In this document: positions 48-11,173 of the stretch, in pieces
Layout of the letters: the number at the start of each line of letters is the position of its first letter
Position numbering within the stretch: position 1 is the first letter of the stretch
Source of the DNA: Clostridiales bacterium
GTDB lineage: Bacteria > Bacillota > Clostridia > DUOD01
Reading direction: 5' to 3'
Assembly (NCBI GenBank): GCA_012838995.1
Contig: DUOD01000067.1
Coordinates: 1 to 39,111, forward strand
Length of the DNA: 39,111 nucleotides
Position numbers and translations under genes: made by a program
Notes under the pieces: generated by a model
Seen by the model: only the letters and a program-made list of their open reading frames with translations
Told to the model about the DNA's origin: nothing
Database searches by the model: none

Positions 48-1971
<1,924 letters not shown>

Positions 1972-2065
1972 AAACAACCAACTCCTTCCTAGAATTTACA
2001 GAAAGTTTGTTTAAAGCATGATACCCTTTGGCTCTTTATTTTAAGACGTTGTTTGAAAGACGATG

Positions 2066-2173: not shown

Positions 2174-2200
2174 TTAGCACTCGATAAGGATGAGTGCTAT
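2174..2200 (-). promoter_or_regulatory. CIRCE operator (HrcA binding site) of groESL
   Basis: The inverted repeat TTAGCACTC, 9-nt spacer, GAGTGCTAT differs from the consensus TTAGCACTC-N9-GAGTGCTAA in one base. It begins 4 nt after the -10 box, so HrcA bound here would cover the transcription start. hrcA itself is not in this window. Confidence 0.95.
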
Positions 2201-8160: not shown

Positions 8161-8702
8161 GATATACACAAAATGGGCAAATTGTATTGACATAAAAAAA
8201 TAATTGTGAAGGGAAGCTAAATCATTAATAAATACGCAACATCCTTTCAACTGTATGTAAAAGGACCCGCTATTTATGTCCTTAATTTCCGATTATATCA
8301 TATTTCACTATATATGAAAAGGGGCCATTATTTAAATGGTAGCAAAACAACAGGAATGATTTGCTGTTGTTTAACCCTCCCGCCTATCATGCTTGGCCTG
8401 TCTACATTCTATTCTATGTTATGACATACGTTTTAATGAAATTACTTTTCCCAAATTATTTAAAGTTTAATTCATCAGCATGTAACACATTTGGTCATTC
8501 CAAAATATATTAAAAAGTAGGATATATTATAACTATTACTATTCATAACCAACCACTGCCCCGTGCCATGCCTGGAAAATTATTTGTAGCACTCTCGGCC
8601 GTTGATTTAAACGACTTAATTAAATGACGTATATTTACCTTAAGCATAAAACCTGTTGGCAAGTTATGATATATCCTAAGACATGGGAAAAGAGGTGTTT
8701 TT
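8161..8702. other. AT-rich intergenic region without a recognisable gene
   Basis: I see no gene in this stretch. It contains weak hairpins only: AAGGAC/GTCCTT around 8261-8283, and AAACAACAG (8345-8353) with CTGTTGTTT (8364-8372). Neither is followed by a T-run. A TTGACA at 8187-8192 has no matching -10 box. A lone CIRCE-like half-site (TAGCACTC near 8587) has no partner. Confidence 0.5.
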
Positions 8703-8819
8703 ATGGGATTCTGTAAAGGCAAAGGCGATGAAGGAGCTGAACTTTTATTTTTCTTTTTGTTGCTCGTTCTGATTTGGCCCTTTTGCCGCAATATCTTCGG
8801 TTTTGATGCTGAAGAATAA
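8703..8819 (+). CDS. Small membrane peptide, 38 aa
   Basis: This short gene has an ATG preceded by AGAGGTG about 5-6 nt upstream. The peptide begins MGFCKGKGDEGAEL, continues with a leucine/phenylalanine-rich membrane segment of about 16 residues (LLFFFLLLVLIWPF), has a second cysteine and ends in an acidic DAEE tail. It resembles, in shape only, the short Gly/Cys plus membrane-helix peptides found in spore-forming Firmicutes; no function is known. A hairpin follows 11 nt after the stop. It might be a translated sporulation or membrane peptide. It does not look like a typical RiPP precursor for the radical SAM enzyme on the other strand. Confidence 0.6.
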   Translation: MGFCKGKGDEGAELLFFFLLLVLIWPFCRNIFGFDAEE

Positions 8820-8829
8820 GCAGACATTA

Positions 8830-8866
8830 CAATTGAGCCAGGGGCTTGACGTCCCTGGCTTAATTG
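8830..8866. terminator. Hairpin between the small peptide gene and L25
   Basis: AATTGAGCCAGGG pairs with CCCTGGCTTAATT (one G-T wobble) around a 9-nt loop. It lies between two convergent genes and probably ends both transcripts, although neither side has a proper T-run. Confidence 0.6.
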
Positions 8867-8959
8867 TTCCTTAGAAGCCGTCGTTTTTCTCTAAAAGTTT
8901 TTCTTTATCATACTCTAAAATAAAATTTTTTAAATGGAAATCCAGTCAATAAATGTATT

Positions 8960-9583
8960 TTATTCAGCCGATCCGTCCGATTCCGCAGGTTGGTCCGCTT
9001 CAGCGACTTCTTCCTTTTCAGCGGCTTCATCCACTTCTTCAATCTGGACATGCTCCGATACGCTAACTATTACTTCATCCTCCGGCAACAGGGGCTTAAC
9101 TCCTTCAGGCAGATCAATGTCTGCCACTGTAATTACGCTGCCGGCCTCCAGCTGTGAAACGTCGATATCAATAATCTCAGGCAAATCCTTTAATAGGCCC
9201 TCTACTTCAATTTCGTCATTTAAAATGTTTAAAACAAGGTCGCCCCTTGAAAACTGCTGTCTGCCTTTAAAGTTAAAGGGCAGCTTTATCTTCACGGGCT
9301 TGTCATGGGAAGAGGCATATAAATCAATATGAATAGGTCTTTTGCTTATTGGTTCATACTGTATGTCTTTAATAACACAAGTTAACTCCTTCTCTTTAAC
9401 TTTAACCCTAGTACTGATACTGGTTGAATGTTTATTTAAGAAACTGTTCATTTCATTTTCTTTAACTTGGATATATATATTACGCTCGACCCCAGGTCCA
9501 TAGATAATGCCGGGAATATATCCCATCTTCCTGGTCTTTCTCCCCCTTTCCGTCCGCTCCATTGCGTTTAATAAAATGCTCAT
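8960..9583 (-). CDS. rplY: Ribosomal protein L25/Ctc (TL5 family), 207 aa
   Basis: This protein binds 5S rRNA in the large ribosomal subunit; in Bacillus the homologue Ctc is a general stress protein. The N-terminal domain (about 1-90) has the L25 fold signature GYIPGIIYGPG and the YEPISKRPIHIDLY segment. The C-terminal TL5 beta-domain (about 95-185) includes IIDIDVSQLEAGSVI and LPEGVKPL. An acidic tail of about 20 residues follows. GGAGG lies 9 nt before the ATG. It stands alone. Its promoter carries a CIRCE element identical in layout to that of groESL, so HrcA control is predicted. The leader is about 325 nt long. Confidence 0.93.
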   Translation of the reverse strand: MSILLNAMERTERGRKTRKMGYIPGIIYGPGVERNIYIQVKENEMNSFLNKHSTSISTRVKVKEKELTCVIKDIQYEPISKRPIHIDLYASSHDKPVKIKLPFNFKGRQQFSRGDLVLNILNDEIEVEGLLKDLPEIIDIDVSQLEAGSVITVADIDLPEGVKPLLPEDEVIVSVSEHVQIEEVDEAAEKEEVAEADQPAESDGSAE

Positions 9584-9599
9584 TGGTAAATCCCTCCAT

Positions 9600-9880
9600 T
9601 TTTTCTTTTGTTTATGCGTTGTAAATTTTACTGACTGAAAACGACAGAAATACTAAGTTTTAAATTTTAGATTATGATATTAAGAAACCCCAAAAAACAA
9701 TAACTTGAGAATTTACAACCATCTAAAAAGCACATTTCAACAGTCAATGAAGACCTGTCCAATATATTATGCGGTTTGGCCGCAGTTGCATAACGCGGTA
9801 ACATAGCTGCTAGCCAGCCCTCGGGAATTTCAGGGGTATGGATATATTTATATAACAAGAATAAAAAACATTGATAAAAC
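9600..9880 (-). promoter_or_regulatory. Long 5' leader of L25/ctc, apparently structured
   Basis: From the predicted start near 9908 to the gene are about 325 nt. On the minus strand GTTGTAAATT (9719-9710) is perfectly complementary to AATTTACAAC (9627-9618), a 10-bp long-range stem that closes just upstream of the ribosome site. Further upstream GCGG-CCAAA-CCGC and GCTG-GCTAG-CAGC make small GC hairpins near 9770-9815. I do not recognise a known riboswitch. A 63-codon reading frame inside (9667-9858) starts with TTG and lacks a ribosome site, so I treat this as noncoding. Confidence 0.45.
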
Positions 9881-9883
9881 TTT

Positions 9884-9910
9884 CTAGCACTCTTTTTATT
9901 CGAGTGCTTA
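9884..9910 (-). promoter_or_regulatory. Second CIRCE operator (HrcA site), upstream of L25/ctc
   Basis: The plus strand reads CTAGCACTC, 9-nt spacer, GAGTGCTTA. The consensus is TTAGCACTC-N9-GAGTGCTAA, so there is one mismatch at position 1 and one at position 8 of the right arm. It begins 4 nt after the -10 box, exactly as at groESL. Confidence 0.88.
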
Positions 9911-9914
9911 CAGT

Positions 9915-9943
9915 ATTTTATTAAACAATCCTTCTTTTGTCAA
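9915..9943 (-). promoter_or_regulatory. L25/ctc promoter
   Basis: On the minus strand, TTGACA (9943-9938), a 17-nt spacer and TAAAAT (9920-9915) give the same boxes and spacing as the groESL promoter. Confidence 0.87.
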
Positions 9944-10474
9944 GGCAACTTAAAAACTCCTAACTGTCTCCATCCTTGGCCGCTTTGTAAAAGACTCCTT
10001 TAAATAAGTGCTTGCTATTTCATTCTTTAGAAATCTTTGCCCTATTTTCTGAATTTATTAATATTATACAATATATTTTGTCTAAAGATAAAAAAGGGGC
10101 ATTACAAAAATAAAATCCGGTAACATAGTAGCTATTGGAAATGATTTTATGCCGCTTATTCGAAAACCTTAGTAAACATTATACCGCCTAAAGCGGTAAA
10201 ATCTGCAAACATAGCCGGAATAGCCGGTGGCATAATATTACTACCTTTTTTACATATATAACCGTCACTAAAATAACGAACGCTTGTTATTTTCGCATAT
10301 TCGTGGCCAATGATTCTTTAATTTAATAATACCCTGGTGCAAACCTTAATGGGATGGATACCATGTTAATTGGAATTTAACAAAAACCCAATGATAACAA
10401 CAGGATTTTACCTTTATAAAATCCACCGGTAACTATATAATAAATGATACAGTGTAATAATCGGAGGTATTTGT
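9944..10474. other. 530-bp intergenic region with scattered hairpins
   Basis: I see no gene or known RNA here. Small inverted repeats are present: ACCGC/GCGGT (10183-10197), AAAATAAC/GTTATTTT (10270-10293) and GGATTTTA/TAAAATCC (10403-10424). Two related words, AAAATCCGGTAACATA near 10113 and AAAATCC-ACCGGTAACTATA near 10418, may be a diverged repeat. A TATAAT at 10436-10441 could be the -10 box of the next gene, but no good -35 is paired with it. Confidence 0.45.
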
Positions 10475-11173
10475 ATGGATATTCTAACTGATATTCCCGT
10501 TTCCATAGACAGAAAAAAACTTTTTAAACAAATTGGGTATAAGGATACATCGGCCATATCGCCTGCCGTGAAGGAATCAATAGAACAAGTAATTTCATCT
10601 GGACTTAGGCTCATCGAACCCAAGCTGGCGGCCAAGAGATGTAATATAAAGGTACAACGTGATAAAAGTCGGGTTTGGGTGGAGGGCAATGTATATTTTA
10701 ACGGGAATTTTACCACAAAACACCTTAAAAACTGTTGCGAGGCGATAATATTTCTGGTAACAGCAGGGCCGGTCATTTCAAAGGAAATCGAAAGCGCCTT
10801 TAAAGAAAACGATTATCTTAAGGCAATGATATTGGACGGGTTAGCCGATCTTGCCATAGAAAACATCATCATGCAGTATTGGAACCGATTGGTGGAAGAT
10901 ATTAAAGCAGAAGGCTTGGGCATAACGGGTTTCATTAGCCCGGGTCACCTTGATTTCGGCGTTGATCAACAAAGGTCGATATTTAAAATTTTAGACGGCA
11001 ATAAAATTGGCCTAAACCTAACGGACTCTTGCCTGATAATGCCCATCAAGTCGGCTTCCGGGCTGTACGGGCTGGGCAAAGGCATAGGTATATCCAGGGA
11101 CAATCATAATTGCCAGCACTGCACAATTCATGACTGCCCCTACAGAACATCGGAGTATATTATCTCCAAGTAA
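10475..11173 (+). CDS. Methionine synthase activation-domain-like protein, 232 aa
   Basis: The protein resembles the stand-alone form of the MetH C-terminal reactivation domain, which binds SAM and helps return oxidised cobalamin to the active state. Visible family features are the GYKDTSAISPAVKESIE start, SPGHLDFGVDQQRSIFKIL, LTDSCLIMPIKSASGLYGLG, and a C-terminal Cys cluster CQHC-x4-CPYR. In Clostridia such proteins often complement a MetH that lacks its own activation domain, but no metH is in this window. Good ribosome site: CGGAGG 7-8 nt before the ATG. The 3' end overlaps the opposing fxsA gene by 14 nt. Confidence 0.82.
   Translation: MDILTDIPVSIDRKKLFKQIGYKDTSAISPAVKESIEQVISSGLRLIEPKLAAKRCNIKVQRDKSRVWVEGNVYFNGNFTTKHLKNCCEAIIFLVTAGPVISKEIESAFKENDYLKAMILDGLADLAIENIIMQYWNRLVEDIKAEGLGITGFISPGHLDFGVDQQRSIFKILDGNKIGLNLTDSCLIMPIKSASGLYGLGKGIGISRDNHNCQHCTIHDCPYRTSEYIISK

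Follow-up and report, generated by a model that had tools for sequence, protein, structure and literature searches.

HrcA is usually seen as a narrow regulator of chaperone genes, and both the regulator and its operator, CIRCE, belong to textbook knowledge. The ctc gene of Bacillus, by comparison, is controlled by sigma-B. In Gram-positive bacteria HrcA represses CIRCE promoters with an activity that depends on free GroESL, and the HrcA regulon of C. acetobutylicum comprises hrcA-grpE-dnaK-dnaJ, groESL, CAC2705 and htpG (PMC3828012). For ctc, induction under stress has been reported in Bacillus and Listeria (PMC5491136).

We analyzed a window of 39,111 nucleotides of a Clostridiales bacterium (contig DUOD01000067.1, positions 1 to 39,111) that carries, on its minus strand, a CIRCE operator ahead of a gene for ribosomal protein L25, here named L25-B. 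The locus resembles the HrcA/CIRCE (class I heat-shock) regulon of C. acetobutylicum in having the same operator in the same place beside a housekeeping promoter and in the presence of an encoded HrcA, but here the operator precedes the gene of a ribosomal protein paralog, and L25 is absent from that regulon (PMC3828012). With stress-induced ctc (PMC5491136) it shares an L25-family protein, a TL5-type C-terminal domain and stress control, the last being predicted here. L25-B, likened to ctc of Bacillus by family and domains, differs from it in having a CIRCE operator and in sitting beside another L25. In the window there is also a second groESL under a control region of its own (groESL2), which recalls duplicated groEL genes with differing control such as those of Myxococcus (PMC9040617). 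Compared with the latter, the second chaperonin is here itself under CIRCE and co-occurs with L25-B, and clostridial groESL2 shares operons with L25-B (genome G271) or with mannoside genes (G044). Two frames at the contig end (37809-39034) resemble an IS3-type transposase pair.

The L25-B gene and its promoter-operator module

The gene (8960..9583, minus strand) encodes a bL25/Ctc-type ribosomal protein of 207 aa with a Ribosomal_L25p domain (PF01386, 64.7 bits) and a TL5 C-terminal domain (PF14693, 72.2 bits). Among solved structures, L25 and CTC chains come nearest to it, and 41 solved L25/CTC sequences were matched. The gene picked out by the sequence-only reading of this DNA is not the sole L25: the genome has two L25 paralogs, and the one bearing CIRCE is the second. 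The other copy, on contig C61, is 31% identical to it, and no CIRCE was found upstream of that copy. A maximum-likelihood tree computed from the N-domains of 199 L25 sequences of Bacillota, unrooted and built from only 101 columns, placed the window copy inside a supported clade of 69 sequences (98/91), the L25-B clade, and the C61 copy outside.

Both the sequence and a promoter scan place a -35 box TTGACA (9938..9943) upstream of L25-B, followed after 17 nt by a -10 box TAAAAT (9915..9920) and, 4 nt further on (9914-9911), by the CIRCE operator (9884..9910), all on the minus strand and just as and where the sequence-only reading had described them. From 9910 to 9884 the dyad reads TAAGCACTC-GAATAAAAA-GAGTGCTAG, so that the operator, TAAGCACTC-N9-GAGTGCTAG, matches the consensus TTAGCACTC-N9-GAGTGCTAA at 16 of 18 positions (2 mismatches). 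The promoter, of sigma-70 type in the hexamer scan, agrees at 11 of 12 hexamer positions and is the top promoter-like site within 8500-10600. Judged against dinucleotide-shuffled versions of the window, 0.04 CIRCE matches with up to 3 mismatches are expected by chance; two were found, and no shuffle gave two.

The second match heads the groESL2 operon (CIRCE, 2174..2200, 17/18 positions, 1 mismatch; groES2, 1687..1977; groEL2, 48..1694; all on the minus strand). The observation that groESL and L25 share one promoter-CIRCE layout is borne out, since the groESL2 site likewise reads TTGACA-17-TAAAAT-4-CIRCE, and at both genes the operator lies at the predicted transcription start, just past the -10 box. 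The two modules have motifs and geometry in common but not the wider sequence, and therefore are not copies of one another. An origin of the L25 module by duplication from groESL2 was rejected on this ground, similarity being confined to the motifs.

HrcA is encoded in this genome (1.92 Mb, 98% complete), in which a genome-wide scan recovered only four CIRCE sites and none of the reversed control pattern. These sites stand before hrcA itself (a perfect match, 9 nt from the frame start), the standard groESL1 operon on contig C59, groESL2 and the window L25, so that hrcA and groESL carry the operator as expected of an HrcA regulon. In its anatomy the L25-B locus matches a standard HrcA target.

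A leader of 300 nt (9584..9883, minus strand) separates CIRCE from the ATG of L25-B. Its length, the frames within it and a weak promoter-like site at 9625-9598 (9/12 positions) would fit a CIRCE promoter serving mainly a leader RNA or a 63-aa frame (9667-9858), with L25 transcribed from a promoter of its own. However, the eight promoter-like sites in the region equal the number expected by chance, and several relatives have CIRCE right before L25-B with short leaders. An RNA element in the leader was also rejected, with no Rfam family above its gathering score and ordinary folding (z 0.09). We regard a separate L25 promoter as very improbable, the least likely of the alternatives weighed here.

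CIRCE directly before L25 in other genomes

In all, 276 L25 loci drawn from class-wide, order-wide, phylum-wide and public-genome searches were scanned for CIRCE within 1 kb upstream of L25 at no more than 3 mismatches. Sites were confined to the loci listed below, which make up 7 of 199 Bacillota L25 genes with CIRCE directly upstream; at the observed CIRCE density, the 199 kb of upstream sequence should hold 0.27 (p = 1.5e-8). All seven genes belong to the L25-B clade (7/69 versus 0/130 outside; Fisher p = 0.0005). They are those of the window genome (locus L031, 2 mismatches), G391 (L089/L172, 1 mismatch), G397 (L176, 2 mismatches), G232 (L270, 1 mismatch), G311 (L276, 2 mismatches), G321 (L235, 2 mismatches) and G357 (L242, 3 mismatches). 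Just ahead of each CIRCE lies a TTGAC[AT]-type promoter, and G391, G397, G232 and G311 have short units in which CIRCE stands 35-78 nt before the L25 domain. Conservation of the CIRCE-L25 pairing in relatives had been named beforehand as a test; with CIRCE upstream of L25 in at least six other genomes, directly, and in more via operons, the pairing passes at the class level.

The proposal that HrcA represses L25 and so links chaperone demand to ribosome repair stands in part. Comparison supports HrcA control well, through an encoded HrcA, four CIRCE sites found only at hrcA, groESL and L25, and the recurrence within the class. The link is not general to L25: most clostridial L25 genes lack CIRCE, and even among the 69 L25-B genes the majority show no site within about 1 kb, which counts against the HrcA-control explanation. 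CtsR boxes, tried as a candidate upstream of other L25-B genes, gave weak matches only. G021 has an L25-B of 94 aa, consisting of the N-domain only, some 400 bp downstream of a sequence resembling 5S rRNA (L039:1-811).

The state of the window operator also has to be weighed. Its two mismatches and the confinement of perfect pairing to the inner 7 bp of the arms (AGCACTC/GAGTGCT in the predicted fold), with the outer arm positions unpaired, count against HrcA control and would suit a decayed dyad that HrcA no longer binds, leaving L25 constitutive. Relatives do show clear cases of operator decay: at three G397 orthologs (G394-G396) a promoter of similar geometry persists beside a decayed operator, CIRCE control therefore being dispensable there, and G044 has a decayed CIRCE-like site with 5 mismatches. 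In the window, however, neither the core AGCACTC-N9-GAGTGCT nor the promoter geometry is damaged, the operator of groESL2 itself has one mismatch, and sites of mannoside operons in relatives have up to three. Loss of binding at the window dyad is very unlikely.

Mannoside operons, groESL2 and other CIRCE neighbours

The direct CIRCE-L25 link proposed from the sequence proved incomplete, since in relatives the two are also joined via CIRCE-headed mannoside operons and groESL2. A mannoside operon headed by CIRCE contains L25-B in G081, G054, G221, G148, G192 and G260. These operons combine a nucleotidyltransferase, a GT4 and a further glycan enzyme, with GH130, PMM or PMI in some; in G054 the GH130 gene is divergent relative to the operon. 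All 11 of 11 examined clostridial mannoside-type operons, with or without L25-B, are headed by CIRCE (0-3 mismatches). Loci of this type are L326, L327, L328, L333 and L435-L441, and the nucleotidyltransferase has hexapeptide repeats.

These operons raise the question of where the L25-B operator came from. CIRCE may have been inherited from a mannoside operon whose genes were lost, leaving L25-B, formerly the last gene, behind the operator as a mere passenger whose heat control is not under selection. The space between CIRCE and L25-B in G321 is occupied by the remains of a nucleotidyltransferase gene (tblastn E ~1e-27), a pseudogene broken by stops and deletions. Among the genomes with direct sites, G000 (the window genome, best E 5.8e-4), G232, G357, G391, G397 and G321 lack a GT4 closely homologous to that of the operon, and in G311 the GT4 homolog is located elsewhere. 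The long leader of 300 nt in the window points the same way, yet no remnant of mannoside-operon or groESL genes was detectable in it. Moreover, the promoter-proximal short units of G391, G397, G232 and G311 argue against such descent, as does G271, where L25-B follows CIRCE-groES2-groEL2 by 146 bp, with a terminator-like sequence (by eye) in between. Passive inheritance is a possibility to which we give a minority share, clearly above that of the alternatives considered so far; it would account for the origin of the operator and not for its function, and L25-B would remain HrcA-controlled.

The window GroEL belongs to a distinct clade, GroEL2 (75-79% identity), which no more than 10 of the 391 genomes sampled from the class possess. 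In nine of the ten, CIRCE (0-1 mismatch) lies close upstream of groESL2. In the tenth, G044, CIRCE is at the head of a larger operon in which groESL2 comes last, after GH130, nucleotidyltransferase, GT4 and glycan genes. L25-B occurs in 8/10 GroEL2 genomes versus 41/381 others (p = 1.3e-6, not corrected for kinship). The C-terminal tail of the window GroEL2 (48-1694) differs from the GGM-rich type, and G271 has a tail resembling that of the window protein.

A further neighbour is a family of 232 aa with the motif LLSIDWDYF and no Pfam match, present in 30 of 391 genomes. This DWDYF protein is encoded in 9/10 GroEL2 genomes versus 21/381 others (p = 2.5e-10, uncorrected for kinship), and its gene sits behind groEL2 (G053, G021), behind L25-B (G179, G853) or behind a CIRCE of its own (G030). 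Loci of the family include L446:3899-4597, L442:953-1651, L331:5827-6528, L381 and L456:1501-2202, the window genome's own copy being on contig C51. No CIRCE with up to 4 mismatches precedes the DWDYF gene of the window genome (L456); a TTGACT promoter followed by a possible, heavily decayed CIRCE (about 6 mismatches) was seen upstream at L456:1120-1200. Further clostridial CIRCE sites stand before genes that look, by eye from their translations, mecA-, htpG-, hsp20- or clpB-like (L378, L371, L377, L379, L383, L385).

A predicted extended HrcA module

The promoter and operator, the specificity for the L25-B clade and the operon links together argue that the window L25 is very probably an HrcA target within a wider clostridial module. 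We consider it highly likely that a housekeeping-type promoter, with CIRCE lying over its start region, drives L25-B, and that the gene is repressed by HrcA and released on heat shock. On the model of groESL and dnaK, HrcA would bind the operator at normal temperature, free GroEL keeping it active, and repress L25-B. When unfolded proteins occupy GroEL, HrcA would become inactive, and L25-B would be made together with GroESL1, GroESL2 and DnaK/GrpE. The predictions are that HrcA binds this operator and that heat induces L25-B, whose level should rise on heat shock. The extended module would include, in varying arrangements, groESL2, L25-B, the DWDYF protein and a mannoside operon of GH130, sugar nucleotidyltransferase, GT4, a further glycan enzyme and PMM/PMI.

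In the open-access literature we found no report of a CIRCE or HrcA link with L25, ctc, rplY or mannoside genes, nor of HrcA control of mannoside-operon genes. The regulator and operator are known, whereas neither the L25 target nor the wider clostridial module was found described in the open-access literature searched.

Because the CIRCE-L25 arrangement recurs in several clostridial lineages, the second L25 copy, a component of the ribosome, seems to be a member of the chaperone regulon in these lineages. That L25-B repairs or alters the 5S particle is only a hypothesis, prompted by its membership of the L25 family and by the reported response of Bacillus and Listeria ctc to stress (PMC5491136); any effect on the ribosome is speculative. 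HrcA might even command a heat-stress set of GroESL2, the mannoside operon, the DWDYF protein and an L25 swapped into the 5S particle, through which chaperone demand would alter ribosome composition, a scenario we think improbable, more so than passive inheritance of the operator. A recurrent CIRCE at one L25 clade, whether alone or in operons shared with groESL2 or mannoside genes, would extend the HrcA regulon so that it took in a ribosomal protein as well as glycan metabolism, and would offer a testable case of a chaperone sensor altering the make-up of the ribosome.
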